A stretch of 22,357 bases of DNA, from the IMG/VR virus record IMGVR_UViG_3300034418_001961, positions 1 to 22,357 of that record; one strand, written 5' to 3'. Within the stretch, counting starts at the first letter, position 1, and each line of letters opens with the position of its first letter. The DNA comes from a virus. Shown here in pieces: positions 1,453-17,186 of the stretch. A program made the translations under genes and the position numbers. The notes beneath the pieces are model-generated. The model was not told the origin of the DNA, ran no database searches, and worked only from the letters and a program-made list of their open reading frames with translations.

Positions 1453-1724
1453 GTATTACATATCGTGGGGAAACCTTTGCAGGGTACAATAGACCAAAGC
1501 GCACCAGCGGGCATCCTAAGAAGTCACATGCTGTTCTAGCAAAAGAAGGACAGAAAATCAAGTTAATTCGTTTTGGACAGCAAGGCGTTAGCGGCTCCCC
1601 TAAAAAGAAAGGCGAGTCGGAGTCATATAGAAATCGGCGTAAATCATTTAAAGCGCGGCATGCTAAGAATATCAGCAAAGGTAAAATGTCCGCAGCTTAT
1701 TGGGCCGATAAGGTGAAGTGGTAA
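1449..1724 (+). CDS. Conserved basic phage protein of unknown function
   Basis: A 91-residue, strongly basic protein (MSITYRGETFAGYNRPKRT..., ending SAAYWADKVKW). The start at 1449 is preferred over an in-frame upstream codon because its ATG overlaps the previous stop as ATGA. Visible pieces are a short N-terminal part, a KLIRFGQQGVSG segment around residues 38-49, and a basic C-terminal part with KARHAKN. From memory, proteins of this pattern are common in marine phage genomes without assigned function. No membrane segment is seen. Its stop overlaps the next start as TAATG. Confidence 0.8.
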   Translation: MSITYRGETFAGYNRPKRTSGHPKKSHAVLAKEGQKIKLIRFGQQGVSGSPKKKGESESYRNRRKSFKARHAKNISKGKMSAAYWADKVKW

Positions 1725-2107
1725 TGTTAAATTTACTTGTTGGTCCTGTTGCTGAGTTAGCAGGAACATGGCTAAGCGGCAAGGTTGAAGAAAAAAAGGC
1801 ACAGTCAGCCACCAAGGTAGCTAAAGCACAAGCTGAAGCTATCGTAATGCAAAAGAAAGCTACTGGTGAGATTGACTGGGACTTGGAGATGGCTAAAGGT
1901 AGCCATACTTCATGGAAAGATGAGTGGCTTACCATTTTGTTTAGCATCCCACTAATCTTGGCATTTATTCCTGGGATGGAAGATATTGTATCACACGGCT
2001 TTGAACAATTGGGCAAAATGCCTGAATGGTATCAATATAGCTTGGGCGTCATTGTTGCTGCAAGCTTCGGTGTCCGCAGTGCTACTCGACTCTTTGGTAA
2101 AAAATAA
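1724..2107 (+). CDS. Holin-like membrane protein (3TM type)
   Basis: A 127-residue protein starting MLNLLVGPVAEL, with AGGTGA 7 bases before the ATG. It has a hydrophobic N-terminus, a charged Ala/Lys-rich amphipathic middle (about residues 20-62), then WKDEWLTILFSIPLILAF and a second hydrophobic stretch LGVIVAASFGV near the C-terminus, ending FGKK. This layout resembles the three-TM holin family known from gene transfer agents. Being three genes ahead of the endolysin supports a role in opening the inner membrane. An in-frame GTG at 1718 is an alternative start. Holin function is inferred from family resemblance and context. Confidence 0.7.
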   Translation: MLNLLVGPVAELAGTWLSGKVEEKKAQSATKVAKAQAEAIVMQKKATGEIDWDLEMAKGSHTSWKDEWLTILFSIPLILAFIPGMEDIVSHGFEQLGKMPEWYQYSLGVIVAASFGVRSATRLFGKK

Positions 2108-2223: not shown

Positions 2224-2465
2224 GTGCTGAGAAGATACTAGAATGGAAATTATTGCCACGTTTTATGATGCTCGTTATGACGGCAATGAGCTGGCGCGTA
2301 GTCGAATGGTTCATGACCTTGCAAGAGCCCAGTGCAGCACAGGCTGGTTTAGTATCTGTGGTAACTGGCGCTATGACCGGCGCTTTCGCCGTATGGATGA
2401 ATCACGAAGGTAAGCACCCTGGCATATCCAATCACCGGATAACAGAGTCACGTAGCAGCAAATGA
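2220..2465 (+). CDS. Small two-helix membrane protein, holin candidate
   Basis: An 81-residue protein with two hydrophobic segments, about residues 13-33 (LPRFMMLVMTAMSW...) and 43-60 (GLVSVVTGAMTGAFAVW), and a charged tail. It lies immediately before the endolysin and its TGA overlaps the endolysin ATG. Size, topology and position suit a second holin or antiholin working with the protein at 1724-2107. From memory such proteins recur beside lysozymes in marine phages. No signal peptide cleavage site is evident. Which of the two forms the lethal hole cannot be decided from sequence. Confidence 0.7.
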   Translation: MSAEKILEWKLLPRFMMLVMTAMSWRVVEWFMTLQEPSAAQAGLVSVVTGAMTGAFAVWMNHEGKHPGISNHRITESRSSK

Positions 2466-2947
2466 AATACAACGCTTCACATTTTTTAGATAAATTGATT
2501 GAGCACGAGGGTATCGTGCTAAATGTATATAAAGACAGCCTCGGCATTGATACTGTTGGTATTGGGCGTAATCTGAAAGACCGCGGCATCAGTAAAGAAG
2601 AACTTGATTACATGGATATACCTAATATTAATGTGGTATATCAACAGGGCATCTCAGAAGCAGATGCGCGTTATTTAGCCATGAACGACATTAAGATTGT
2701 CGAAAATGAATTGGTCAAGGTGCACCGGTGCGTTGAAGACCTAGACAGTGTTCGCCAATTAGTTCTAATGGATATGGCCTTTAATATGGGCGTGCCACGC
2801 CTTTGTAAATTTAAAAACATGTGGAATGCTATCCACGAACAAAACTATGAAGCTGCATCATGGGAGATGCTAGATTCTAAATGGGCACGGCAGGTAGGCC
2901 GTCGTGCTACTATTTTATCAGATGCTATGAAAGCTGGAGAATTTTAA
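2462..2947 (+). CDS. Endolysin, T4-type lysozyme (GH24)
   Basis: A 161-residue muramidase that cuts the N-acetylmuramic acid to N-acetylglucosamine bond of peptidoglycan, releasing progeny at the end of infection. The catalytic triad has T4-lysozyme spacing: Glu16 (EHEG), Asp25 (YKDSLG) and Thr31 (DTVGIGRN), i.e. E-x8-D-x5-T. The length is close to T4 lysozyme (164). A later segment with MAFNMGVPRLCKFKN and the C-terminal WARQVGRRA match the conserved lysozyme lobe. There is no signal peptide, so the enzyme should wait in the cytoplasm for the holin. The ATG overlaps the preceding stop; the next gene starts directly after its TAA. Confidence 0.93.
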   Translation: MKYNASHFLDKLIEHEGIVLNVYKDSLGIDTVGIGRNLKDRGISKEELDYMDIPNINVVYQQGISEADARYLAMNDIKIVENELVKVHRCVEDLDSVRQLVLMDMAFNMGVPRLCKFKNMWNAIHEQNYEAASWEMLDSKWARQVGRRATILSDAMKAGEF

Positions 2948-3334
2948 ATGGCGCAGAGTAAAGGAAGCGGATTTAGCAATGTAGATATGTCCGTAATTTC
3001 TACAAAACGGGAAGAAGAAAAAGTTCCTGTTTTTAAAGATTTGCCTAAACCTTACCCACCTTCAGCTCCTGTAGCTATGCATAGAGACTATTTTGAAAAA
3101 TACATAGAACCTAAAATTACTGGGAATAAAACTATTGATAGGAACGTTTACCAAGCAGCGCAATATCTTCAAGATAAAGGAGTACCTATTCCAAAAGTAT
3201 TGCAGGGCAAAACTTTTGCTGAATACCTTGAAGAAAAAGGCATGAAAATTAGTAATAAACGAGCAGGCGGCACTAAAATGCCTAAAAAGCATATTATGGA
3301 ATTGCCAACCAATAGCGCACAGCGGAGAAAATAA
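2948..3334 (+). CDS. Hypothetical protein with C-terminal KMPKKHIMELPTN tag
   Basis: A 128-residue protein, unrecognised. The N-terminal half is polar with a proline-rich stretch (PKPYPPSAP, residues 33-41). The middle is probably helical (YQAAQYLQDKGVP). Residues 107-122 carry GGTKMPKKHIMELPTN, followed by only six residues. The same tag occurs in the next two genes. No signal peptide or membrane helix is seen. It starts immediately after the endolysin stop and its own stop overlaps the next ATG (TAATG), so the three tagged genes are in one transcription unit. Function unknown. Confidence 0.8.
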   Translation: MAQSKGSGFSNVDMSVISTKREEEKVPVFKDLPKPYPPSAPVAMHRDYFEKYIEPKITGNKTIDRNVYQAAQYLQDKGVPIPKVLQGKTFAEYLEEKGMKISNKRAGGTKMPKKHIMELPTNSAQRRK

Positions 3335-3837
3335 TGGGAATACTTAAAGGGTCATTTAAAAAACGTACCACAGGAACTGCTGATAATCCGCTTACAAAAT
3401 ATGAAAAGCAGCTTAAGCAGACTTCTGAAGATGCAACATTTAAAGTAAAAGCAGGTAACTTTGGAAAAGGTAGCAACACTTTAAGCGGTATTGCAGATAA
3501 ACTTGGCGTAACTCTTAAATCTTTAGAAAAAGAAAATCCTAATATTGCAGATTTAAATAAAATCTCTTCTGGCCAGAACATTAACGTGCCCCTACGAAAA
3601 CAAACTTTTGTAGAAAAATACATTTTAGGCGAGAAAACTAAGCCGGCTACACGCAAAGTTCAAACTTCTTCGGGTGAAGAAGAAACAATGGCAGTTAAAA
3701 AAGGCTCGGAAGGGCCAGTATATAAAGGTATGTCTAAGTCTGACATGGCAAAAATTACTTTAGAGCGCAATGGCGGTGCTAAAATGCCTAAAAAGCATAT
3801 TATGGAATTGCCCACCAATAGTTCTAAACGGAGCTAA
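3334..3837 (+). CDS. LysM-domain protein with C-terminal tag
   Basis: A 167-residue protein. Residues about 35-87 form a LysM-type module (FKVKAG..., NTLSGIADKLGV, LKSLEKENPNI, ISSGQNINVPL), a fold that binds N-acetylglucosamine-containing glycans such as peptidoglycan. A polar linker follows, and residues 147-162 are the tag GGAKMPKKHIMELPTN. There is no catalytic domain, signal peptide or membrane segment, so the protein probably acts from the virion or inside the cell; a virion protein that contacts the wall at infection is an inference. The stop of the preceding gene overlaps this ATG. Confidence 0.82.
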   Translation: MGILKGSFKKRTTGTADNPLTKYEKQLKQTSEDATFKVKAGNFGKGSNTLSGIADKLGVTLKSLEKENPNIADLNKISSGQNINVPLRKQTFVEKYILGEKTKPATRKVQTSSGEEETMAVKKGSEGPVYKGMSKSDMAKITLERNGGAKMPKKHIMELPTNSSKRS

Positions 3838-3839
3838 CA

Positions 3840-3893
3840 ATGTGGCCCTATAATGATGAGGAAAACCAATGGCTGGACAAAGTAAAGAAGTAA
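3840..3893 (+). CDS. Possible 17-residue peptide
   Basis: Begins two bases after the preceding stop and reads MWPYNDEENQWLDKVKK before TAA, overlapping the start of the next gene. The aromatic, acidic sequence looks protein-like, but no ribosome site is visible and the frame is too short to judge. It may only serve translational coupling to the gene at 3869. Confidence 0.2.
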   Translation: MWPYNDEENQWLDKVKK

Positions 3894-4192
3894 AAGTCAA
3901 AGAAATTGATACAGAGGAACAGATGCGTATCAATTTTTACGATAAAGGCCGTGATGATACTATGTCTTTTGCTCAATATGTAAAATCTGGCATGGCTAAG
4001 CGTGATATGAGTAACAGTAAAGGTGGAGCCAAAATGCCTAAAAAACATATTATGGAACTGCCTACTAATCGTCCCCGTCTAAAGGGCGGCGCTATGATTG
4101 CTGACATCAATAACAATGGCAAGATTGAGGGATGGGAGCAAGCTCGTAGTGATGCCATTCAGCGAAACCAAAAGAAAAGTGCATCCAGTTGA
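3869..4192 (+). CDS. Tagged protein with EF-hand-like loop
   Basis: A 107-residue protein preceded by GAGG about 10 bases before the ATG. Residues 52-67 are the tag GGAKMPKKHIMELPTN. After it comes KGGAMIADINNNGKIEGWE, in which residues 79-90 (D-x-N-x-N-G-x-I-x-x-x-E) fit the 12-residue calcium-binding loop of an EF-hand or dockerin repeat. Short phage proteins with a similar D-x-N-x-D-G loop near a terminase are familiar from marine phages, without known function. The next gene overlaps its 3' end in another frame. Confidence 0.78.
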   Translation: MAGQSKEVKVKEIDTEEQMRINFYDKGRDDTMSFAQYVKSGMAKRDMSNSKGGAKMPKKHIMELPTNRPRLKGGAMIADINNNGKIEGWEQARSDAIQRNQKKSASS

Positions 4193-4769
4193 GGCCAGTA
4201 TTCGGAAATGGTCTAACGACTTTCTTGAAGTTCCGAATGTAAAATTAAATGGATTACCCCCTTGCCCCTATGCTCAAAAAGCGTGGGCGGATAACAAAGT
4301 TACATTCAGCATTAACACTGGTCTTGAAGGATTAGCTGATGCTGTTAAAAAATTTAACCAGCACAACTATGATATAGTTGTATGGGCAAGCGAAGAACTA
4401 CCGGACATAGACTACCTTGATGGATGGTGCGATGGTATGAACGAAGCTTTGTCTATTGCTGGTATAGATATGCATCTTATGGTGTTTCATCCAGAGTATG
4501 ACGCTGTAGATGCCGGATTGGAATTCCTGATTCATGAGGAACAAGAAGATTTAGAATACTGTATGGTATTCGTACAACGGCTGGCATTACTAGATGATGC
4601 GGCGCTAAGTTTGGAAAAGTCAGGGTATTACAAACATTTTCCAGACGATGTTTTTGAAAGCCTAGTGTTGGCAAGAAGGAAACTAAGAAATGGTAGCAAA
4701 GAAAACAAAAGCCCGCGGCGGCAAAATGAAGATGGCAGCTCGCAAGATGCGTGGCGGAACGCAAGTTAA
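4152..4769 (+). CDS. Conserved hypothetical protein (PPCPYAQKAW motif)
   Basis: A 205-residue soluble protein. I chose the ATG at 4152 because the conserved-looking sequence starts at MPFSETKRKVHPVEASIRKW and upstream codons lie deep inside the tagged gene. It contains LNGLPPCPYAQKAW near residue 35, a hydrophobic beta strand (DIVVWASEELPD), and FLIHEEQEDLEYCMVFVQRL, suggesting an alpha/beta fold. I recall the PPCPYAxKAW pattern from marine phages, function unknown. The last ~25 codons overlap the basic KMRGG gene in another frame and read as low-complexity sequence, so the C-terminal extension may be recent. It overlaps its upstream neighbour by 41 bases. Confidence 0.75.
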   Translation: MPFSETKRKVHPVEASIRKWSNDFLEVPNVKLNGLPPCPYAQKAWADNKVTFSINTGLEGLADAVKKFNQHNYDIVVWASEELPDIDYLDGWCDGMNEALSIAGIDMHLMVFHPEYDAVDAGLEFLIHEEQEDLEYCMVFVQRLALLDDAALSLEKSGYYKHFPDDVFESLVLARRKLRNGSKENKSPRRQNEDGSSQDAWRNAS

Positions 4770-4845
4770 GAAGATGCGTGGCGGTGGCATGGCTAAAATG
4801 GCATCAAAAAAAATGATGCGTGGTGGGATGACAAAGAAGAATTAA
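4690..4845 (+). CDS. 51-residue basic Met/Gly-rich repeat protein
   Basis: The product starts MVAKKTKARGGKMKMAARKM and contains four MRGG or RGGK-type repeats separated by Lys-rich spacers, ending GGMTKKN. It has no acidic residue except the C-terminus, so it is highly positively charged. The DNA AAGATGCGTGGCGG occurs twice 26 bp apart, showing internal duplication. Such peptides would bind nucleic acid or acidic surfaces; packaging with the genome or DNA condensation are possible roles. It overlaps the end of the preceding gene in another frame. Confidence 0.65.
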   Translation: MVAKKTKARGGKMKMAARKMRGGTQVKKMRGGGMAKMASKKMMRGGMTKKN

Positions 4846-5446: not shown

Positions 5447-5563
5447 ATGCCCCTTACAACAAAAGGTTCTAAGATTAAATCTGCCATGACAAAAGAATAT
5501 GGGGAGAAGAAGGGTGAACAAATCTTCTACGCAAGTGCCAACAAAGGAATAATTACACACTAA
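5447..5563 (+). CDS. 38-residue conserved small basic protein
   Basis: Reads MPLTTKGSKIKSAMTKEYGE..., with KKGEQIFYASANKG near the C-terminus. AGGAG lies just before the ATG. The pattern G-x-K-I-x-x-x-M-x-x-x-Y-G-x-K-K-G-E-x-x-F-Y-A-S-x-N-K-G is one I recall from many aquatic phages, always as a peptide of about 40 residues with unknown function. The stop overlaps the next ATG (TAATG). Confidence 0.75.
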   Translation: MPLTTKGSKIKSAMTKEYGEKKGEQIFYASANKGIITH

Positions 5564-5724
5564 TGGCTACTAAGAAAAAAACTAAAAAACCAGTACCAAC
5601 CAAGCCCGCTTTGTGGACAAAAGCAAAAGCAGAAGCAAAGCGCAAATTTAAAGTATATCCATCAGCGTATGCTAATGGGTATGCCGCTAAACGTTATAAA
5701 GCAATGGGTGGCGGCTGGAAGTAA
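5563..5724 (+). CDS. 53-residue basic protein, WxxAKxxA family
   Basis: Reads MATKKKTKKPVPTKPALWTK..., followed by a segment with AYANGYAAKRYKAMGGGW. A lysine-rich N-terminus precedes a compact segment in which Trp, Ser-Ala-Tyr-Ala and Tyr-Lys-x-Met-Gly-Gly-Gly recur in small phage proteins of unknown function that I have seen in aquatic phages. The ATG overlaps the preceding stop and its own stop overlaps the next ATG. Confidence 0.72.
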   Translation: MATKKKTKKPVPTKPALWTKAKAEAKRKFKVYPSAYANGYAAKRYKAMGGGWK

Positions 5725-6401: not shown

Positions 6402-6683
6402 ATGGCTTACAAAGGAGGCTTAAAAAAGTGGTTTGGCGAAAAATGGGTAGACGTATCAACAGGAAAACCTTGTGGCCGCAAATCAGCAACTAAGTCTAAG
6501 AGAAAGTATCCAGCGTGCCGCCCGGCGGCGACAGCTGCCAAGATGTCGAGAGGACAGAAAGCCGCCATTACGCGTAAAAAGCGAAAAGCCGGCAACCCAG
6601 GTGGAAAGCCCACATCGGTTAGATGGCCCGTTTCACCCTCTGGACGGAAACAGTCGACCAAACGGAAAGCTTCAAAAGCATGA
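6402..6683 (+). CDS. Basic protein with WFGEKWVDV and AGNPGGKPT motifs
   Basis: A 93-residue, very basic protein. It starts MAYKGGLKKWFGEKWVDV, has a conserved CGRKSA, a KRKYPACRP segment, MSRGQKAAITRKKRKAG and NPGGKPT. Two cysteines flank the middle. Phage proteins with this order of motifs form a domain family of unknown function (I believe DUF5872, unverified). The C-terminal ~25 residues are a Ser/Lys tail. The TGA overlaps the next ATG. Location ahead of the terminase genes is the usual neighbourhood for such proteins. Confidence 0.8.
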   Translation: MAYKGGLKKWFGEKWVDVSTGKPCGRKSATKSKRKYPACRPAATAAKMSRGQKAAITRKKRKAGNPGGKPTSVRWPVSPSGRKQSTKRKASKA

Positions 6684-6937
6684 CCAATAAACGTAATTAT
6701 AGAAAAGAATACGATAATTACCACGCCCAGCCAAAGCAAAAAAAGCGCCGCGCTTCTCGTAATGCAGCACGCGCTATTATGGCTAAACGCGGTAAAGTCA
6801 CTAAAGGTGACGGTAAAGACGTGCATCATACGTCAGGCAACCCTATGAATAATACAAGGTTGTCTGTAAAAGCTAAGAGCAATAATCGCTCATTTGCGCG
6901 TACTAAAACAGGAAGAAAGAAGAATCCTCGTGCCTAG
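6680..6937 (+). CDS. Small basic protein with HNH-like core
   Basis: An 85-residue protein. The ATG at 6680 overlaps the previous TGA and is preferred over an in-frame upstream codon inside the preceding gene. The core DVHHTSGNPMNNTRLSVKAK resembles the HH...N(P)xxN region of HNH nucleases, and the C-terminus is basic (RTKTGRKKNPRA). It is shorter than typical HNH enzymes and lacks a clear second His/Asn metal site, so catalysis is uncertain. HNH proteins beside terminases often help packaging in other phages; by analogy it may assist TerL. Confidence 0.72.
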   Translation: MTNKRNYRKEYDNYHAQPKQKKRRASRNAARAIMAKRGKVTKGDGKDVHHTSGNPMNNTRLSVKAKSNNRSFARTKTGRKKNPRA

Positions 6938-7328
6938 TCAAAGACAATTAACCGAGTTACAATCTAAGTTTTTGGATGCTTTGTTTGGCGAAGCTGGCGG
7001 CAACTATTCTAAAGCTATGCGCCTTGCTGGGTATTCGGAAACTACAAACCCTTACGCAATTATTCAATCACTGCGTTCTGAAATTATTGAACGCGCAGAA
7101 CTAGAAATGGCCGCTAATGCGCCTAAAGCTGTTCTGTCTATGGTTGGTGTTATTGATGACCCTACCGCTATTGGTAACAGGGAACGGCTAGCTGCATCAC
7201 AACAAATACTTGACAGAGTAGGGCTTTCTAAGGTAGAAAAGCTTAACGTGTCGGCAGAAAAGCCGATGGGATTGTTTATACTACCGGCAAAGAATGATGA
7301 CAGCATCGAAGAGACTGAATCCAACTGA
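6930..7328 (+). CDS. terS: Terminase small subunit
   Basis: A 132-residue protein starting at GTG 6930, which overlaps the preceding stop. Upstream in-frame codons lie inside the HNH-like gene. The N-terminal part is helical with a helix-turn-helix-like SKFLDALFGE...NYSKAMRLAGYS, typical of DNA-binding small terminases. A second helical region (APKAVLSMVGVIDDPTAIGN) and a C-terminal strand (MGLFILPAK) would oligomerise and contact the large subunit. It recognises the packaging site on the concatemer. Identification rests on pattern and on position two genes ahead of TerL. Confidence 0.75.
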   Translation: MPSQRQLTELQSKFLDALFGEAGGNYSKAMRLAGYSETTNPYAIIQSLRSEIIERAELEMAANAPKAVLSMVGVIDDPTAIGNRERLAASQQILDRVGLSKVEKLNVSAEKPMGLFILPAKNDDSIEETESN

Positions 7329-7632
7329 TAGGTATGATAAAGTAAACTGCCCAACAGTTCCGTGGGGCTACAAAAGGTCAGACTTTGACCCACAACTTTT
7401 AGAACCTATTGAAGAACATTTAGAAGCCTTGGAAGAAGGCATTGCGTATTTAAAAACCTCGTCCTACCCAGAAGTAGCTCGGTGGCTTACGGATTACACA
7501 GGTGTACGGATTACTCCAATGGGCTTGTGGAAACGTGTAAAACGTGACGCATCGGATAGACGAAAGCATGTTGAACAAAAACGCCGTGCGGCCAAGACCG
7601 CGGCCCAAGGCAACATCCAAACCCAAAACTAA
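7294..7632 (+). CDS. HTH-type protein, probable detached N-terminal part of TerL
   Basis: A 112-residue protein with two adjacent ATGs at 7294 and 7297, overlapping the small terminase by 35 bases. Visible parts are VPWGYKRSDFDPQLLEPIEE, a helical SYPEVARWLTDYTG segment and ITPMGLWKRVKRDASDRRKH that resembles a helix-turn-helix followed by a basic coiled coil. In some marine phages, as I recall, the same order of segments precedes the ATPase domain in one protein. Here the frame ends at 7632 while the TerL frame, shifted by +1, continues the coiled coil from 7568. A split gene, reinitiation or frameshifting would all explain this. Confidence 0.7.
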   Translation: MMTASKRLNPTDRYDKVNCPTVPWGYKRSDFDPQLLEPIEEHLEALEEGIAYLKTSSYPEVARWLTDYTGVRITPMGLWKRVKRDASDRRKHVEQKRRAAKTAAQGNIQTQN

Positions 7633-9196
7633 AGAGCAGCGGGAACAGGACAAGCTAAAACGTGCTAAGCGTTCTGCGCGAACTCAGCTTAATATGGCCC
7701 AGAAAAAATTGGTCAAGCTGACGCAGCAAGAAGAGGCTCTTAAAGAACCCGAAGCTCAATTGATTGGTACTAGCGCGTACCAGCCAGTTGAGGAGCAAGA
7801 AGATGAAATTTTGTTCGAGCCAAATGCCGGCCCTCAAACAGACTTTCTTGCTTCATCGGAACGAGAAGTTTTATACGGTGGCGCAGCTGGTGGCGGCAAG
7901 TCTTACGCTCTAATTATTGACCCGTTGCGTTATTGTAATAACCAGAATTTTAACGCGCTGATTCTTCGTCGTACAAATGATGAATTGCGCGAATTGATAC
8001 ATAAAAGTCAGGAGATGTACCCTAAAGCATACCCTGGCGCAAAATGGATGGAAAAGAAAAGCCAATGGACATTTCCATCCGGTGCTAGAATCTGGATGAC
8101 ATATCTAGAGCAGGACAAAGATGTTCTGCGTTACCAAGGTCAGGCGTTTACTTACATTGGCATAGACGAACTGACGCAGTATTCGACACCTTATGCTTGG
8201 GATTATTTACGCTCGCGTCTCAGAACTGCAGACCCCTCGTTACCCGTCTTCATGCGGGCGACAACCAACCCTGGTGGTCCGGGGCATGCGTGGGTTAAAA
8301 AGATGTTTATCGACCCTGCTCCGCATAACACATCGTTCTGGGCGACTGACATTACTACTGGTGAAACGTTGGCTTATCCAGAACGCCATAGCAAAGCGGG
8401 ACAACCGCTCTTCAGGCGGCGTTTTATCCCAGCTAAATTGTTGGATAATCCGTACCTTTATGAGCAAGGCGACTATGAAGCCATGCTGCTCTCACTGCCT
8501 GAAGTACAGCGACGACAGTTACTAGAAGGGTCTTGGGATATTGCGGAAGGCGCCGCCTTTTCAGAATTTAGTAGGCTACATCATGTTGTTGAACCTTATG
8601 ACATACCGAATTCATGGCGTAAATTTAGGGCTTGCGATTACGGCTACTCCTCTGCTACCGGCGTTCTTTGGTTTGCTGTAGACCCAGCTGATGAAACGCT
8701 TCTTGTTTATCGGGAGCTTTATGTAAGTAAAGTACCAGCTAAAGAGCTAGCACATATGGTACTAGCGGCAGAAGAAGGCGAAGCTATACATTACGGCGTA
8801 CTTGACTCGTCACTATGGCACAAGCGCGGTGATACAGGACCAAGCCTAGCTGAACAGATGATTGTTGAAGGATGCCGTTGGCGTCCATCTGACAGAAGTC
8901 GCGGTAGCCGTGTAGCAGGCAAAAACGAACTGCACCGCAGACTACAAATTGATGAAAATACTGGGCGCGCCGGCATTGAGATATTTAATAACTGTACTAA
9001 CCTCATTGCTCAGCTTCCTTCCCTTCCTCTAGATAAAACTAATCCAGAGGACGTAAATACTAAAGTAGAAGACCACCTCTACGATGCACTGCGATATGGT
9101 ATCATGTCGCGACCACAGTCTCGGTCTATCTTTGATTACCCAAATCAAATACCAACACAAAGATGGGCACCTGCAGACACAACTTTTGGATATTGA
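7568..9196 (+). CDS. terL: Terminase large subunit (packaging ATPase and nuclease)
   Basis: A 542-residue motor that drives DNA into the procapsid and cuts concatemers. A basic coiled-coil N-terminus (about 1-80) is followed by Walker A GGAAGGGKS (residues 104-112), Walker B YIGIDE (196-201) and the TTNPGGPGHAWVKKMF coupling segment. The RNase H-like nuclease follows, with candidate metal-binding Asp357 (RACDYGY), Asp413 (YGVLDSS) and Asp506 (DHLYDALRYG). I chose ATG 7568; an in-frame codon at 7544 is possible. It overlaps the HTH-type gene by 65 bases and is followed after 3 bases by the portal gene. All expected motifs are intact. Confidence 0.95.
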   Translation: MLNKNAVRPRPRPKATSKPKTKEQREQDKLKRAKRSARTQLNMAQKKLVKLTQQEEALKEPEAQLIGTSAYQPVEEQEDEILFEPNAGPQTDFLASSEREVLYGGAAGGGKSYALIIDPLRYCNNQNFNALILRRTNDELRELIHKSQEMYPKAYPGAKWMEKKSQWTFPSGARIWMTYLEQDKDVLRYQGQAFTYIGIDELTQYSTPYAWDYLRSRLRTADPSLPVFMRATTNPGGPGHAWVKKMFIDPAPHNTSFWATDITTGETLAYPERHSKAGQPLFRRRFIPAKLLDNPYLYEQGDYEAMLLSLPEVQRRQLLEGSWDIAEGAAFSEFSRLHHVVEPYDIPNSWRKFRACDYGYSSATGVLWFAVDPADETLLVYRELYVSKVPAKELAHMVLAAEEGEAIHYGVLDSSLWHKRGDTGPSLAEQMIVEGCRWRPSDRSRGSRVAGKNELHRRLQIDENTGRAGIEIFNNCTNLIAQLPSLPLDKTNPEDVNTKVEDHLYDALRYGIMSRPQSRSIFDYPNQIPTQRWAPADTTFGY

Positions 9197-9199
9197 TAA

Positions 9200-11299
9200 A
9201 TGGCTGAAGATGAAAACATTGAAGCGCTAGTATTTGAACCAAAATCAGGTTCTGAAGAACTTGCTGAATATATACGTTCAAAATTTGAAATTGTAGAATC
9301 TAGTCGCCAAGATGAAGAAGAACGGTGGCTGGATGCTTACCGGCAATACCGCGGTCTGTACGGCCCTGATATGCAATTTACATCTACCGAAAAATCTCAA
9401 GTCTTTATCAAAGTTACAAAAACCAAAGTGCTGGCAGCATACGGACAGATTATTGATGTCTTGTTTGCTGGCCAGCGTTTTCCTTTAGGTGTTGACCCTA
9501 CTCGCATCCCAGAAGGCGTAGAAGAAGCGGTACATTTTGACCCTAAAGATGCCGAAAATTCTATGGAAGAGCTCGGCAAAATGTACGGATTTTCTGGAGA
9601 TGGACGGCAACTCCCGCCTGGGGCTACCCGTAAAAGCCTAGAAGAAATGAACCTTGGTACATTTTCTGATGAACTTTCTGAAATTGAGGGCGACGTACGC
9701 CTCGGCGTTGGTAAAACTCCTACCGCACAAACTTACAATCCAGCACAAGAAGCTGCAAAGCGGATGGAGAAGAAAATACTAGACCAACTTGAGGAGTCTA
9801 GTGCATCTAAACATTTGCGCCTCACTGCATTTGAAATGGCTTTATTTGGCACAGGCATCATTAAAGGCCCATTTGCGGTAGATAAAGAGTATGCTAATTG
9901 GGACGATGAAGGTAACTATGACCCGTTAATTAAAACGGTACCAAAAGTAGAAAACGTTTCTATTTGGAACTTTTACCCTGATTCTGACGCTAAAAATATG
10001 GATGAATGCGAATTTATTATTCAGCGGCATCGCCTAAGTCATTCAGATTTACGCGCACTTAAGAAGCGCCCATACTTCCGTGCTGACGCCATTGATAATG
10101 CCGTTTCTATGGGCACTAACTACACTCGTAAGTGGTGGGAAACAGACATTGAAGACTACCGAAATTCGTATGATATCGACCGGTTTGAAATCCTTGAGTT
10201 CTGGGGCAACATCGACAAAGATGTAGCAGAAGAAGCAGGGCTTGATGTTCCCGCCGATTTGAAGAATGTAGACACGCTACAAGTTAATTGCTGGATTTGC
10301 CACGATAAAATCCTACGGCTTGTAATCAATCCGTTTACGCCTAAGCGTATTCCGTATTTTGCCGCACCATACGAAATGAATCCTTATTCATTCTTTGGCG
10401 TAGGCTTAGCAGAAAACATGACTGATACCCAGCAGCTTATGAATGGCTTTATGCGCATGGCTGTTGATAATGCCGTACTTTCTGGAAATCTTATATTTGA
10501 AATTGACGAAACCAACCTAGTCCCAGGGCAAGACCTTGAGCTCTACCCCGGTAAAGTATTTCGTAGACAAGGTGGCGCACCAGGTCAAGCGCTATTTGGC
10601 ACTAAGTATCCTAACGTCAGCGCCGAAAACATGATGATGTTTGATAAAGCGCGGCAGATGGCCGATGATGCTACGGGTATTCCATCGTACTCCCACGGCC
10701 AAACAGGCGTACAAGGCACCGGCCGTACAGCCGCCGGCATCTCTATGCTTATGGGAGCTGCCCAGCTGAGCATTAAAGGCGTAGTTAAAAACATTGACGA
10801 TTACTTGCTACAGCCTTTAGGGGAAGCATTCTATGCATTCAATATGCAATTTGATTTTGACCCTGATATTAAAGGCGACTTAGAGGTTAAAGCGCGTGGT
10901 ACCGAAAGCTTGATGAAAAATGAAGTTCGGTCACAACGGCTACTTCAACTTCTTAATATTGCAGGGAATCCAAACCTTGCATCATTTGTTAAGTTTTCTG
11001 TCGTACTTAAAGAATTGGCACAGTCTATGGACTTGGATGCCGAGAAGTTTATTAACGATGAGCGGGAAGCATTCCGGCAAGCACAGATTATTCGTGAAGC
11101 TGGCGGGATGCAGCAACAGCAACAACCTGACCAAGGGCTTAGCCCAATGGATATGTCTGGCGGCGGCGCCGGTAACATAGGGGTAGGAGGCGCAGCTGTG
11201 CCAGGCGAGCAAGGCTTTAGTGCCGCCGGTGAGCAAGCACCACAACAAGAACAAAACCCACAGGCACAACTTGCTAGTATACTAGGAGGTCTTCGGTGA
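9200..11299 (+). CDS. Portal protein
   Basis: A 699-residue protein forming the dodecameric ring at the capsid vertex through which DNA enters and leaves. The identification rests on position directly after TerL, length typical of podovirus portals, and segments such as RWLDAYRQYRG, ENVSIWNFYPD, AAPYEMNPYSFFGVGLAENM and DDATGIPSYSHGQTGVQGTG, which I associate with marine podovirus portals. The acidic N-terminal domain, central alpha/beta wing and helical stem fit the fold. The last ~65 residues are Gln- and Gly-rich (MQQQQQPDQG...), low complexity, perhaps lying inside the head. Its TGA overlaps the GTG of the next gene. Confidence 0.9.
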   Translation: MAEDENIEALVFEPKSGSEELAEYIRSKFEIVESSRQDEEERWLDAYRQYRGLYGPDMQFTSTEKSQVFIKVTKTKVLAAYGQIIDVLFAGQRFPLGVDPTRIPEGVEEAVHFDPKDAENSMEELGKMYGFSGDGRQLPPGATRKSLEEMNLGTFSDELSEIEGDVRLGVGKTPTAQTYNPAQEAAKRMEKKILDQLEESSASKHLRLTAFEMALFGTGIIKGPFAVDKEYANWDDEGNYDPLIKTVPKVENVSIWNFYPDSDAKNMDECEFIIQRHRLSHSDLRALKKRPYFRADAIDNAVSMGTNYTRKWWETDIEDYRNSYDIDRFEILEFWGNIDKDVAEEAGLDVPADLKNVDTLQVNCWICHDKILRLVINPFTPKRIPYFAAPYEMNPYSFFGVGLAENMTDTQQLMNGFMRMAVDNAVLSGNLIFEIDETNLVPGQDLELYPGKVFRRQGGAPGQALFGTKYPNVSAENMMMFDKARQMADDATGIPSYSHGQTGVQGTGRTAAGISMLMGAAQLSIKGVVKNIDDYLLQPLGEAFYAFNMQFDFDPDIKGDLEVKARGTESLMKNEVRSQRLLQLLNIAGNPNLASFVKFSVVLKELAQSMDLDAEKFINDEREAFRQAQIIREAGGMQQQQQPDQGLSPMDMSGGGAGNIGVGGAAVPGEQGFSAAGEQAPQQEQNPQAQLASILGGLR

Positions 11300-11520
11300 C
11301 ACCAGAAGTAGCTAAAAAACTACTCCCACTTGTTAATACTAAAAAGAATACTGACGCTCTAGAACTCTATATGGAAGAACGGATTAAAGATGCGTTTAAG
11401 GTACTAGAACAGTCTACTGATGTGGTAGTTATCCACATGGCACAAGGAGCAATCCGCGAGTTACGCAGGTTAAAAAGTTTGCGTAGCGAGGTAGTAGCAA
11501 AGGCAGGACAGAATGGCTAA
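11296..11520 (+). CDS. Small helical protein between portal and virion protein
   Basis: A 74-residue protein starting at GTG 11296 with a strong AGGAGGT at 11284-11290, the best ribosome site among these genes. The sequence is highly charged and helical (LLPLVNTKKNTDALELYMEE, AQGAIRELRRLKSLRSEV). The GTG overlaps the portal stop and its TAA lies inside the next gene. A helical chaperone or portal-associated factor is possible; no family is recognised. Confidence 0.8.
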   Translation: MTPEVAKKLLPLVNTKKNTDALELYMEERIKDAFKVLEQSTDVVVIHMAQGAIRELRRLKSLRSEVVAKAGQNG

Positions 11521-14500
11521 TGAATCAACCCCTATGATTGGACAACGCATGACACGGCGGCAAGCTGTAAATCGGGGTAAGCAGGATATTCAAGACTATA
11601 ATGATGCTGGCATTTCTTCTTTAGAGATGTTGCCTATGTATCTTACAGGCACAGCAGACGCTGTAAATGACGCCCTTCGTATTTCTCGTTCTACCGCTAA
11701 TAAATTTGATTATCAAGATGATGACCGCACTGAAGACACGCTGAGGCACATTCTACTTGGTGGACTTGCTGAAGTAGGCGAAGAGGACAGCGTCCTAGGC
11801 ATGAAAAATTTCTTAGGAACGGGGCTAGGTTCAAAAGTTGCTTCGGAACTAATTGATTTCCGTGAAGCTAGCGGCAGTCCTGAAAGTAAGATTGATGTTA
11901 TCAATAATGAGTTTGGGCGGCAACTAAGAAAAGCATATCCAAATAGAGAAGAGTTTATTCAACAAGCTATTGACGTAGCTCAAAAAATGTACGCTGGAGA
12001 AGAAGTTGAACCTATCAATGATATGTCTCCAGCGCTTAGCTACGGGGCATTGCCAATCCCTGAGCAAGCTGAAGGAGGAATTATGATGGCACAAACCGGA
12101 AAAACAGCATTGCCAATGACAGAGGCAACATCAGCGCCACAAGGCGGCGGACCTAAAGCAGCAAATCCTGCCGCTAAGCCGTCCCTTGTTCCTGCTCCTA
12201 CTGCGGCTCCACGCCCCGGCGCGGCTGACCCCCGCGATGCTGCAATTCAAGAAGTATCTCAAAAAATGAAAGAAAATCAAACTGCACAAATGCCTCCTTC
12301 TATTGTGCCTGCTGAACAACCTGCTTCAGATGCCCTCCCCCAGCAACCAGTTGGGGGTCTGGCAGCACCTACAAATATGCCCGTACCTATGATGGCAAAA
12401 GGCGGAATGAAAGATGATTCGTCCGAAGGTCTTGCTGTTATGATTGGGCTTGGTGCGCCGACCTCCTCATATGATGATTATGAAGATGCTGCCGAAGGTA
12501 ATCCTCCACCTGGAGCAACTAAAGAAGAAGTAGCTGACGACCAACTTGTACTCTTGAGCGAGGGGGAACTTGTAGTTCCTGCTAACGTGGTACGTTATCA
12601 TGGCCTTGGCACATATGAATCAATGCGGCGCGAGGCGCTTATGGGACTACAAGACATGGAGCAAAATGGCCAAATTGAATATGTTAGTGGTGGCGCAGAA
12701 AAAGCAGATAAAATTGATGATAATGGCGGAATCGTAAAAGCGCAAGCTGGTACATATTTAATGAATACGCCTTTTCCTTCTACAATGATGTCGCCCCAAT
12801 ACAAAACGACTGCTTTAGCAGCGCCAGTTGCAGCATCGTCACAGTACATACAAACTCCAGGCACTCCAGCACCGGGTACTCCAGCGTTGGGAACTACGGG
12901 TACAACAAGCACAACATCGTTAACTCCACTTAGTCTTGGGCAACCAACTCCTAATGTTCCTACGGATATTACAGGCGTATACGCCCCTAACGTTGGCGAA
13001 TATTTGACACGTCAAACCACAGGCACGGACGCTGAAGACGACACTGGAGACACTGGTGATGGCACTGACGATACTGCGCAGCAGCCTAGTTCACAACAAC
13101 GAGATGATGGTGGAAATGATGGGCGTGAACCAACCAGCTATGCTACAACTGTTTTTGGTGGTACCTCAGAAAATGGCTTAATTCGTGGAGGCACAAAGTA
13201 TGAAGTATCCTATGAGTCAAGCACCCCTTCTAAAGTTCCAGGCATTGCTGGTGCATTATTAAGTTTAGGAAATTTAGACCAGGTGCGTCTGACTGACCCT
13301 AGAACAGGGCAATCTGCGCTTATGTCTAAAGAAACTTATAATAAAATGAAAGAAAATAGAACTGACCCTGCTAATCTTTCGTTAATTAACGATATTATGT
13401 CTGGTCAGCAAGCGGTCGATTATAACCTAACACGTGCACGTGAAATAGCACCATTTAAAACCGGTGTTCAAGAAATGGGAGCTGCTTTTGGTTTAGGCAG
13501 AGCACCGGGCTCTACCAAAGCAGAACAACAAGCTGCGGCAAAAGCTATCGCAGATGATATGGGTATTGGTTACACAGGTCAATCCCTAGCTGAAATGATT
13601 GCTATGGACAAAAACTACAGCGGTCAAAAATCTCCTGTGTATACTTCTGATGCACAAGGTAATCTTGTTCTTGATACGCGCTATAGCACCGGCCCAACTG
13701 GTACGACTGCCGCAGAAACTATTGCTGGCGCTGGCCAATTCAGTGGCACCCCTGCTGCCCCTGTAGCAGTTGATAGGTACACTGGACCGTACACTGAACC
13801 TACATTAGGTTTAGGAATGCCTACTTCTGGCGGTTACCGGTTTGACCCAACTACTGGCACAATGACGCCTACTACTGATTATACTTATGGTAAATCAAGT
13901 GTACCCGGCATAGCTAATAGAGCAGGAACAATAATGACAGCTATTGACCCTGCAACTGGTGCGGTTAGTTCTCAACCAATGCCACAAATGAGCACAATTA
14001 ACCAATCTGCTTTGTCTTCTTCGCAAAGAAGTACGGCTAGTGCTATTGTTGACGCCCAGATGAAAGCAGCTGGTATCAGTCCTACCACAGAAATATCCAG
14101 AAGTCCTGCTCGTACAATTACTCCTACTGGTGGAGCTATTGAAGAAGTTAAATACTCAGATGGTAGCACGGCTCTAGTACATGCAGGCACAGACGTTGGT
14201 ATTAACACTGGCGGAGGACGGGGCGTTGGAATGACAGCAAACCAAATAGCCGAACAACGGGCATCGTATGCAGGCCTAGACAGAAGCGCCGGCGCTATTG
14301 ATGACGAAATGGGCGATGTTGAAACAATATCAGGACAAGGTTTTGGTTCTGACTTTGCTAAAGAAGATGCAAATGTTGGCGGATACTCGCGTGGGCCTTC
14401 TGTTTCATCTGGCGGAAGTTACGCGGATAACAAAGCTGCAGCTGATTCCGCTGCACAAGACCAAACAGGAAGTTCTACCGCGTCTGCAGTTACCGATAAA

Positions 14501-14881
14501 GACGGTAATGCAGTTACATCTGGTGACGGAAGTATTGTTACTAACGACCCACAGAAAGACAATTCTGGTGGCGGTAGCACCGGCGGTGGATGTGTTATTG
14601 CTACGCATGCTGTTGCTAATGGAGGGTTTTCTCCAGATGTTAAACGTGAAGCAGTTCGCTGGTGCGTTAAAAACTTGCATCGTAAATGGTATGGTGAGGC
14701 AATTCGCCGCGGATATCGGTATCATGGCAACAAAGCCATTGCTTACGGCCGTGCCCATAATCACTACGAAGAATTTAAAGATTATGTAGATTTTGCTACT
14801 GGCAAAAAGCGTAACTTTAAAAACCTTGGTACTTTTGTTTATAGAACAATACAGTTTTTTATCACTGGACTTTTTGTTTAA
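11513..14881 (+). CDS. Large virion-associated protein with C-terminal CVIATHAV domain
   Basis: An 1122-residue protein. The N-terminal ~150 residues are helical and conserved-looking (YLTGTADAVNDALRISRS, LRHILLGGLAEVGEEDSVLG). A Pro/Ala-rich linker is followed at about 342-390 by DDQLVLLSEGELVVPANVVR and YHGLGTYESMRREALMGLQD, a pattern I recall from marine podoviruses. A long Gly/Ser/Thr-rich central stretch follows. From about 1027 there is a compact C-terminal domain beginning GGGCVIATHAVANGG and containing EAVRWCVKNLHRKWYGEAIR. The cysteine motif resembles the CFIATAAYG box of bacterial proteins. Position between portal and scaffold suggests an internal or ejection protein; that is inference. 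There is no signal peptide. Confidence 0.8.
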   Translation: MANESTPMIGQRMTRRQAVNRGKQDIQDYNDAGISSLEMLPMYLTGTADAVNDALRISRSTANKFDYQDDDRTEDTLRHILLGGLAEVGEEDSVLGMKNFLGTGLGSKVASELIDFREASGSPESKIDVINNEFGRQLRKAYPNREEFIQQAIDVAQKMYAGEEVEPINDMSPALSYGALPIPEQAEGGIMMAQTGKTALPMTEATSAPQGGGPKAANPAAKPSLVPAPTAAPRPGAADPRDAAIQEVSQKMKENQTAQMPPSIVPAEQPASDALPQQPVGGLAAPTNMPVPMMAKGGMKDDSSEGLAVMIGLGAPTSSYDDYEDAAEGNPPPGATKEEVADDQLVLLSEGELVVPANVVRYHGLGTYESMRREALMGLQDMEQNGQIEYVSGGAEKADKIDDNGGIVKAQAGTYLMNTPFPSTMMSPQYKTTALAAPVAASSQYIQTPGTPAPGTPALGTTGTTSTTSLTPLSLGQPTPNVPTDITGVYAPNVGEYLTRQTTGTDAEDDTGDTGDGTDDTAQQPSSQQRDDGGNDGREPTSYATTVFGGTSENGLIRGGTKYEVSYESSTPSKVPGIAGALLSLGNLDQVRLTDPRTGQSALMSKETYNKMKENRTDPANLSLINDIMSGQQAVDYNLTRAREIAPFKTGVQEMGAAFGLGRAPGSTKAEQQAAAKAIADDMGIGYTGQSLAEMIAMDKNYSGQKSPVYTSDAQGNLVLDTRYSTGPTGTTAAETIAGAGQFSGTPAAPVAVDRYTGPYTEPTLGLGMPTSGGYRFDPTTGTMTPTTDYTYGKSSVPGIANRAGTIMTAIDPATGAVSSQPMPQMSTINQSALSSSQRSTASAIVDAQMKAAGISPTTEISRSPARTITPTGGAIEEVKYSDGSTALVHAGTDVGINTGGGRGVGMTANQIAEQRASYAGLDRSAGAIDDEMGDVETISGQGFGSDFAKEDANVGGYSRGPSVSSGGSYADNKAAADSAAQDQTGSSTASAVTDKDGNAVTSGDGSIVTNDPQKDNSGGGSTGGGCVIATHAVANGGFSPDVKREAVRWCVKNLHRKWYGEAIRRGYRYHGNKAIAYGRAHNHYEEFKDYVDFATGKKRNFKNLGTFVYRTIQFFITGLFV

Positions 14882-14894: not shown

Positions 14895-14973
14895 TATCCC
14901 ACAGTTTTAAATAACTGTAGCTGGCTACCCATCACCCCATTTGGCTACTGGTGGCCCCGTCAAGGAGAATGTT

Positions 14974-15843
14974 ATGGCTGAAGTAGCTGTAAAACAAGAA
15001 ATTAAAACTACCCCGATTAAATACAAAAAAGACCGTTCCAATGAAGATGCAGAACTGCAGCGACTAGAAGAAGAACGTGCAAGTTTGCTACAGGAACAAC
15101 TAGATGACACCGTAGATAAAGAAGAAACTGCAAGTCTTCAGCCTGAAGAAAAAACATTTAAAAAACGTTACGGCGATTTACGCCGGCATGCTCAGCAAAA
15201 AGAAGAGCAACTAAAAGAACAAGTTAGAAAATTAGAAGAACAGCTTTCTACTGCTACCAAAGAGGCAATTAAACTTCCTAAATCTGATGAAGAAATTGCC
15301 GACTGGTCAGAGAAATACCCAGATGTAGCAAAGATTGTTGAAACAATTGCTACTAAAAAAGCACAAGAACTGGATTCTTCACTTGAAAAACGCTTACAGC
15401 TTATTGCAGAGCGCGAAGCTGACGCTAATAGAAAGCGCGCTGAAGCTGAACTCCTTCAGCTACATCCTGATTTTGATGATATCAGAAATAGCGAAGATTT
15501 CCATTCATGGGTACAAGAACAGCCTACATGGGTACAAAATGCGCTATATGAGAATGAATCAGATGCACGCGCCGCCGCACGCGCAATTGATTTGTACAAA
15601 ATTGATAGCAATATTGCCGAAAAGAAAAGCAAGTCAACTAGACCTGATAAAGAAGCGGCTAAAGCTATTTCTTCCCGTAGTTCTAGCACGGTAGCTAGCA
15701 CTAAAGAATCGCAGTCAAATCAATGGCGAGAGTCTGACGTAGCTAAAATGCGTCCACAAGAGTATTCTAAGTATGAAGAAGCTATTATGGATGCTATTCG
15801 TACCGGTAACTTTATTTACGATGTTTCTGGTGGCGCACGGTAA
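14974..15843 (+). CDS. Capsid scaffolding protein
   Basis: A 289-residue, highly charged, almost entirely helical protein expected to guide capsid assembly and then leave the procapsid. Coiled-coil stretches include DAELQRLEEERASLLQEQLD and LKEQVRKLEEQLSTATKEAI. A mid-region has SEKYPDVAKIVETIATKKAQ. The basic C-terminus (RPQEYSKYEEAIMDAIRTGN) could be the coat-binding helix known in other scaffolds. The ATG at 14974, with AAGGAG 8 bases upstream, is preferred over the in-frame TTG at 14941. It lies directly before the major capsid gene, the usual order, with its own promoter. Confidence 0.88.
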   Translation: MAEVAVKQEIKTTPIKYKKDRSNEDAELQRLEEERASLLQEQLDDTVDKEETASLQPEEKTFKKRYGDLRRHAQQKEEQLKEQVRKLEEQLSTATKEAIKLPKSDEEIADWSEKYPDVAKIVETIATKKAQELDSSLEKRLQLIAEREADANRKRAEAELLQLHPDFDDIRNSEDFHSWVQEQPTWVQNALYENESDARAAARAIDLYKIDSNIAEKKSKSTRPDKEAAKAISSRSSSTVASTKESQSNQWRESDVAKMRPQEYSKYEEAIMDAIRTGNFIYDVSGGAR

Positions 15844-16115: not shown

Positions 16116-17186
16116 ATGGCTTTTAAAACTGCCGCTGGATACGGTAATCTACCAAATGGCAACTTTAGCCCGGTAATTTACTCGCAAAAAGTCCAGCAAG
16201 CTTTCCGTAAATCTTCTGTCGCAGAGCAAATCACGAATTCCGATTATTTCGGTGAAATCGCAAACTTTGGCGATACTGTTCGTATCATTAAAGAGCCAGA
16301 AATCACCGTTAAGGAATACGCTCGTGGGACTCAAATTACCCCACAAGACCTCGACGACGAAGATTTTAGCCTTGTTGTAGACAAGGCCAACTACTTTGCA
16401 TTTAAAGTAGATGACATTGAAGACGCGCACAGCCACGTTAACTTTGAATCATTGGCATCTGACCGTGCAGGCTACCGCCTTCGCGACCAGCATGACCAAG
16501 AAGTTCTCGGTTATCTGTCAGGTTATGCTCAGACTGCCCTCAGCACTGCTGCCGGTGCCGTAAACACAACTGTTTCCGGTTCTAAGGCTGTTGCAACGGC
16601 TGGTTCTGACGAATTGCTGACAAGCATGAAGCTTCGTAAAGACAGCTTTGGTAACATCACCACTGCTGGTGCTGCCGACCACTCAATTCCTCTAGCAGCA
16701 CGTCTGCCTGGTGCAACTGCGCTCCCAACTCTGACTGCCTCACCATTGATGGTAATCGCACGTATGGGACGTAAGCTGGACCAGCAGTTTGTTGACTCAG
16801 ATGGTCGTTGGTTGGTCGTTGACCCTGTTTTCGTTGAATTGCTGAAAGATGAAGACTCACGTCTTCTGAATGGCGACTTTGGCGGTTCTGGCCTTCAGGC
16901 TGGGCTTGCTATCGGTCGTATTCACGGCTTTGACGTTTACGTGTCAAACAACCTGCCAGTCGTAGGTGGAGGCCCAGACACAACTGGTACTGCTAACCAG
17001 AACACCGACTACGGTGTCATTGTTGCTGGCCACTCTTCAGCTGTAGCTTCGGCTTCACAAATTACGAAAACTGAGTCATATCGTGACCCAGATTCGTTTG
17101 CGGACATCGTTCGCGGTATGCACCTGTACGGCCGCAAAATCCTTCGTCCTGAAGGCATTGTAACGGCTAAGTACAACGCTGCTTAA
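16116..17186 (+). CDS. Major capsid protein
   Basis: A 356-residue protein that forms the icosahedral shell. Evidence is its position after the scaffold, typical length, a strong ribosome site (AGGAG) and its own promoter. The N-terminal region reads VIYSQKVQQAFRKSSVAEQI, followed by an extended E-loop-like part (GDTVRIIKEPEITVKEYARG) and a FKVDDIEDAHSHVNFESLAS helix. The C-terminal part has RIHGFDVYVSNNLPVVGGG and MHLYGRKILRPEGIVTAKYN. This pattern fits an HK97-fold coat of the P22-like or marine podovirus type. No protease gene is nearby, so maturation by cleavage is not indicated. Codon choice is more GC-rich than in neighbouring small genes, as for highly expressed genes. Confidence 0.9.
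   Translation: MAFKTAAGYGNLPNGNFSPVIYSQKVQQAFRKSSVAEQITNSDYFGEIANFGDTVRIIKEPEITVKEYARGTQITPQDLDDEDFSLVVDKANYFAFKVDDIEDAHSHVNFESLASDRAGYRLRDQHDQEVLGYLSGYAQTALSTAAGAVNTTVSGSKAVATAGSDELLTSMKLRKDSFGNITTAGAADHSIPLAARLPGATALPTLTASPLMVIARMGRKLDQQFVDSDGRWLVVDPVFVELLKDEDSRLLNGDFGGSGLQAGLAIGRIHGFDVYVSNNLPVVGGGPDTTGTANQNTDYGVIVAGHSSAVASASQITKTESYRDPDSFADIVRGMHLYGRKILRPEGIVTAKYNAA

Follow-up and report, generated by a model that had tools for sequence, protein, structure and literature searches.

The internal proteins of phage T4 are highly diverse and have a capsid-targeting peptide alone in common (PMC3012670, PMC12373910), namely an N-terminal capsid-targeting sequence (CTS) of 10–20 residues that is removed by the protease gp21 (PMC5694885). 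Targeting propeptides have also been proposed to bring the ejection proteins of the giant phages SPN3US and phiKZ into the head (PMC5694885), and P22 injects gp7, gp16 and gp20 (PMC8402733). Herein we characterize short peptide tags in marine phages, using a 22,357-nucleotide stretch of viral DNA (hereafter the window) as reference. These tags resemble the T4 CTS, as found on IPI-III and Alt, in that one short peptide sits on unrelated, variable small proteins in an exchangeable slot. Unlike the CTS, they are C-terminal, internal or N-terminal, are mutually unrelated in sequence and differ between sister lineages; moreover, the marine phages have a P22-like coat with no protease seen, and incorporation into the particle is here a proposal made from sequence. 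The SPN3US and phiKZ propeptides are mostly long, N-terminal and cleaved by a protease, whereas each marine tag is one short motif on unrelated proteins. P22-like podoviruses belong to the same coat-fold class as the tagged phages, although the tagged payloads are instead small and hypervariable. To our knowledge, no common short tag has been described for the P22 ejection proteins, and we know of no prohead protease in P22-like heads. A search of the open-licence literature found no description of such tags for these phages.

The window derives from an uncultured HMO-2011-like marine podovirus, which megablast and the large terminase subunit (TerL) group with Puniceispirillum phage HMO-2011 and the Roseobacter CRP phages. 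Its TerL is 67.5% identical to that of HMO-2011 and up to 69% identical to those of CRP phages, while megablast aligned the window with HMO-2011 tail genes at 77.6%.

One peptide on unrelated proteins

The initial annotation of the window had reported a 16-residue tag in three neighbouring, otherwise unrelated proteins, near the C-terminus in two and internal in the third, and this proved to be real. The peptide, GG(T/A)KMPKKHIMELPTN (tag A), is common to three consecutive window proteins (Table 1), which have no 7-mer in common once the tag is excluded. The 128-aa protein has relatives in just two places, one a near-identical contig and the other, at a greater distance, contig L015. The LysM domain named in the annotation was recovered in the second protein (PF01476, E 1.4e-5, 25.3 bits against a cut-off of 20.9), whereas the EF-hand-like loop of the third stands as a single 12-residue loop in a protein with no Pfam or PHROGs match.

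Table 1 Features of the window, with tag copies listed under the proteins that carry them.
Feature	Position	Strand	Remarks
Putative holin-like membrane protein, lysis cassette	1718..2107	+	phrog_2524 (function unknown)
Lysozyme	2462..2947	+	PF00959; immediately 5' of the tag-A slot
Tagged payload 1	2948..3334	+	128 aa, basic, without known domain (PHROGs, Pfam)
Tag A copy 1	3266..3313	+	GGTKMPKKHIMELPTN; C-terminal in the 128-aa protein, 6 residues follow
Tagged payload 2, LysM protein	3334..3837	+	167 aa
Tag A copy 2	3772..3819	+	GGAKMPKKHIMELPTN; C-terminal in the LysM protein, 5 residues follow
Tagged protein 3, EF-loop protein	3869..4192	+	107 aa; variable N-terminal part
Tag A copy 3	4022..4069	+	GGAKMPKKHIMELPTN; internal in the EF-loop protein, 40 residues follow
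Single EF-hand-like loop	4103..4138	+	DINNNGKIEGWE; shortly after tag A copy 3
Conserved gene 3' of the slot	4125..4769	+	phrog_28122; start uncertain
Terminase small subunit (TerS)	6894..7328	+	By relatedness and position; without PHROG match of its own
Terminase large subunit (TerL)	7544..9196	+	Basis of the lineage tree
Portal / head-tail adaptor protein	9200..11299	+	Candidate tag receptor
Scaffold-position protein, portal-coat interval	14941..15843	+	phrog_13678; candidate tag receptor, inferred
Major head protein	16116..17186	+	phrog_267; HMO-2011 counterpart annotated P22-coat-like, PF11651

Beyond the window, the exact string KHIMELPTN matched 44 IMG/VR stretches and was absent from all 84,980 prokaryote genomes searched, and the pattern IMELPTNVPR(L/F) matched 55 viral-contig stretches. 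With both patterns pooled, tag A occurs 123 times in 63 contigs, 53 of which hold two or three copies. The annotation had held that a tag confined to one phage would be a chance duplication; chance or duplication within a single phage is excluded by the 44 IMG/VR stretches set against none of 84,980 prokaryote genomes. GenBank phages gave no true match to the tag in whole-protein and 25-aa tblastn searches, in which short queries have little power. The carriers form about 10 unrelated protein families, with the tag C-terminal in the LysM, 128-aa, 90-aa, 89-aa, 134-aa and further proteins and internal in the EF-loop protein; families starting like MKKKHIMELPTNVPRL carry it right at the N-terminus. 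For the letters that were fixed in the search patterns, conservation is partly a product of how the matches were selected, although neither the number of carriers nor the synonymous freedom described below is affected. In two AlphaFold models (mean pLDDT 61 and 63), the tag regions are predicted as coil with low confidence.

What is conserved is the peptide and not the DNA. Across 87 tag-A proteins all degenerate codon positions vary (Leu, for example, is encoded by TTA, CTA, TTG, CTG and CTC), and tag B, introduced below, shows the same synonymous-site variation over 19 unrelated payloads. Pairing the tag-A copies that share a contig gave 378 codon comparisons, of which 152 showed a synonymous difference and 41 a non-synonymous one. 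The annotation had left open whether selection for a shared function or recent copying explained the identity of the copies. Since synonymous differences prevail in this way and the tag occurs in many phages and many proteins, the former is supported and the latter, as an account of the whole tag, is rejected. Only window copies 1 and 2 are close in DNA (45 of 48 bases), while copy 3 agrees at 40–41 of 48 with mostly synonymous changes. A recombination site or regulatory element was rejected for the tag core, where wobble positions are free. An overlapping ribosome-binding site may lie behind the KR-rich last residues alone.

The third window protein belongs to a wider module. A DxNxNGxxxxxE loop lies 19, 20 or 24 residues from the start of the tag core in 44 tag-A proteins, with at most one such module per contig. 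The constant part of the family comprises the tag plus PRL..G..DLNKDGK.SGYE..R..AIEK, and the N-terminal part is variable. The loop compares with single EF-hand or dockerin-like loops, to which it is similar while standing at fixed distances from tag A; it has no Pfam match and calcium binding is putative. A low-confidence AlphaFold model of the window protein gives the loop as coil, predicts the following helix and has no entering helix.

Lineage-specific labels and switching

Three further labels, all C-terminal, were found in related phages. Tag B (DYRKGGMVLSTVDNRKK-end) is carried by about 19 payload families, and a pattern search returned 52 contigs in which many unrelated proteins terminate with the motif. 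In prokaryote genomes the same pattern gave three matches, none of them in an ORF bearing the tag. About a dozen small proteins are labelled with tag C (NKGGYAKCGAS(YKG or NPPSKKR)-end). Among them are CRP-1 gp65 and CRP-345 gp75, and each of these two cultured phages has only one tag-C protein in the stretches read. Tag D (GGAVMxxRGGxFKG-end) emerged from a body-based search for LysM homologues. Tags A and B together cover 29 payload clusters that stay separate once the tag is masked, and further payloads carry C or D.

Several related observations were made alongside. The C-terminus of HMO-2011 gp68 (L055:21605-22642), GGLDFNRGGMVKKRKK, resembles a degenerate tag B. One tag-C protein has an EF-hand/dockerin-like loop, FPDLNKDGKVTKADIL (L156:5180-5425, L173:782-1018), and so parallels the window EF-loop protein. 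In Pelagibacter phage HTVC033P, gp79 and gp78, small neighbours encoded in the TerL–portal interval (L130:4341-4859), have the C-termini LFTMADEKDY and IFRMAEERDY; a fifth tag in this pelagiphage was considered and set aside, since gp78 and gp79 look like paralogues.

The LysM protein gives the clearest view of how labels are exchanged. In the alignment, the LysM bodies match up to residue ~148, after which the ends diverge, with tag A in the window, L005 and L006 and tag B in L007, L009, L010, L085, L089 and L106; the masked bodies are 64–83% identical across this switch. The LysM homologues of L007–L010 lack tag A, and those of L008–L010 end in YR(K/E)GGMVLSSxDNRKKK (L007 in a close variant); in L009, the unrelated gene after the LysM gene has an end of this type too. 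Further relatives were retrieved by a profile with its search patterns placed within the body, which avoids selecting on the tag. Among them, tag A was found in the window, L178 and L179, tag B in, for example, L180–L182, L184, L185, L192, L194, L195 and L199–L202, and tag D in L183, L186 and L189. In L190, L191, L193 and L196 the LysM domain is fused ahead of the tag-A/EF-loop module, so that two window proteins are one there. The ends of L187 and L188 are unmatched, and L197 and L198 have no recognisable tag. The LysM protein has tag A in the lineage of the window, B in that of HMO-2011 and D in a third. The annotation had taken tag-free homologues as a sign of chance duplication; most LysM homologues elsewhere do lack tag A, but they have a different tag in the same place. 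Two more families switch labels, one between A and B (L032 vs L096/L100) and one between B and C (L057/L070/L087 vs L145).

Labels agree within genomes. In eight LysM contigs (not counting the near-identical twin contig of the window), an unrelated neighbour bears the LysM protein's own tag, whichever that is. Of 50 sets that include two or more tagged proteins, 47 were concordant, compared with a mean of 32 and a maximum of 38 after shuffling, and no contig holds tags A and B together. The three discordant sets (L008, L009 and L079, each B with C) are overlapping or near-identical records and probably represent one phage type; in L009, tag B is on two proteins and tag C on one. A quickly built TerL tree of 89 contigs, in which some branches are long, places the tags in lineage blocks: tag A requires 2 changes (mean after shuffling 22), tag B 5 (29) and tag C 5 (19). 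Near-copies add to this clustering.

Payload traits and gene neighbourhood

Representatives of the 29 tag-A and tag-B payload clusters all have a pI of 9.3–10.6 and contain no cysteine in 3,922 aa; among the 131 tag-A/B proteins, a single one has Cys, at one residue. Basic and cysteine-free composition was found in 29 of 29 payload clusters but in only 12 of 40 neighbouring small-protein families (Fisher P = 3.5e-10), a comparison that is conservative because one control family resembles a divergent tag-A relative. Ten tagged proteins from lineages A, B and C had no PHROGs match, and Pfam matches among tagged payloads amounted to LysM and one Tat signal. The latter lies at the start (MTDKKVTRRSFLKG) of a tag-B payload in L071:1238-1987, L072, L074 and L102 (PF10518 in L071), and its sequence suggests that an exported or formerly exported protein bears tag B, with a periplasmic step.

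Tag-A and tag-B payloads occupy a variable slot between lysis and packaging genes. The tag-A slot is directly 3' of the lysozyme gene, the tag-B slot lies in most contigs between TerS and the gene preceding TerL (g53), and each has many unrelated occupants. The window order is holin-like, lysozyme, 128-aa, LysM, EF-loop, phrog_28122, small basic genes, TerS and TerL, followed 3' of TerL in the late-gene region by portal, a large protein, the scaffold-position protein and the coat protein. Near the slot, positions 4690-4845 encode a 51-aa protein of KMRGG/MRGGM repeats, and similar small basic GG-repeat proteins are found near the slot in several relatives. Two small basic proteins (5563-5724 and 6402-6683) match DUF5872 (PF19197) weakly, the second barely above the curated cut-off.

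Proposed readers of the tags and competing explanations

A reader specific to the lineage is needed for a label that is common to unrelated proteins, concordant within a genome, different between sister lineages and rewritten on homologous cargo. We consider it an even call that the tags are lineage-specific virion-loading labels on exchangeable cargo, working like the T4 CTS. Under this proposal, each tag would be a short linear address label, private to its lineage and read by a lineage-specific phage component; most likely it would serve to bring varying sets of accessory proteins, all small, basic and without cysteine, into the head as it assembles. The tags, their confinement to lineages and their switching are observations, from which we infer a common receptor, virion incorporation and injection; candidates for the reader are the protein in scaffold position, the portal and the large post-portal protein. 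The last of these (1122 aa, window 11513-14881) has no significant family match, GG motifs and a SEGELVVPANVVRYHG stretch, and is a candidate for an ejection-type protein and tag reader. Such cargo would share the particle with the DNA and probably be delivered along with it into the next host, the route that T4 internal proteins take by way of their CTS. Small, basic, cysteine-poor and variable cargo beside packaging genes is consistent with loading into the head along with DNA. Lineage specificity is, however, expected from any lineage-specific partner, capsid or otherwise, and every core protein co-diverges with lineage. Further observations weigh against the loading model: one tag-B payload starts with a Tat signal, four LysM homologues have an unmatched end (L187, L188) or no recognisable tag (L197, L198), and the cultured relatives show just one tag-C protein each in the stretches read (CRP-1, CRP-345) or a degenerate tag B alone (HMO-2011).

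The comparison with T4 is worded as "works like" rather than "is" because most tags are not at the N-terminus and no protease came to light. In the T4-type system, the prohead protease cuts at an (L/I)xE site. Tag A has I-M-E in 77 of 87 proteins and D or Q in place of E in the other 10, and tags B–D have no such site. Protease recognition, one of the functions suggested in the annotation, was not borne out: the other tags lack a common site, and PHROGs and Pfam gave no prohead protease among the window proteins scanned, the window being part of a ~55-kb genome.

An alternative that we consider unlikely is that the tag docks small proteins on a lineage-specific holin, spanin, lysozyme or envelope component, and that LysM and other modules thereby work on the cell wall in lysis or entry. 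The tag-A genes are directly behind holin and lysozyme genes, one payload has LysM and one tag-B payload a Tat signal; LysM and the adjoining lysozyme also fit an envelope role. LysM, however, accounts for a single payload family among about 29, and envelope-type domains are missing from most of them; moreover, tag B is located in the terminase block rather than the lysis block, no export signal was noticed outside the Tat family, and such strong basic charge is unusual for an envelope role.

It is quite unlikely, in our estimate, that the tag binds other accessory proteins, with the EF-loop protein as a hub or tag to tag, in an intracellular complex for which packaging would be unnecessary. 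The 44 proteins that combine tag and EF-loop, with variable N-terminal parts and no more than one per contig, would suit a hub, and most tag-A contigs have several tagged proteins; in most tag-B contigs, on the other hand, only one tagged protein was detected and no EF-loop protein with a tag, which means that a tagged partner is not general.

Binding to a host protease, chaperone, nucleoid or polymerase, with motifs differing as hosts differ, appears highly unlikely. The tags do differ by lineage, cultured relatives infect different hosts (SAR116, Roseobacter and SAR11), and basic payloads suit contact with nucleic acid. Yet tag A is almost invariant across a TerL-diverse clade, and the tags were not found in prokaryote genomes, the three tag-B pattern matches lying outside tag-bearing ORFs.

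That the peptide is a by-product of a recombination site, a regulatory signal or a homogenised duplicate is barely tenable, despite the close DNA of window copies 1 and 2 and C-terminal copies near the next gene start (with a ribosome-binding-like GGAG overlapping the KR-rich last residues), since residues are kept and bases are not, wobble varies freely between payloads and between copies, Arg, Leu and Ser come from different codon families, and copies placed internally or at the N-terminus lack a next-gene context, such that this explanation is already refuted for the core.

Returning to virion loading, a broader view, held tentatively and with somewhat less than even confidence, is that the lineages of one of the most abundant groups of ocean phages have their own "postal code" peptides, rewritten on moving cargo, and that these mark a class of particle-loaded, host-delivered cargo that can be recognised by sequence. 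Packaging aside, it is unusual for sister lineages to switch the peptide label on a conserved protein body, and this gives the search for a receptor a concrete footing. Should the tag prove to act in loading, its short, lineage-specific forms could be used to send proteins into phage particles, it would give a first handle on the particle cargo of uncultured marine phages, and it would mark probably injected effector or anti-defence proteins, which could then be listed by pattern search.
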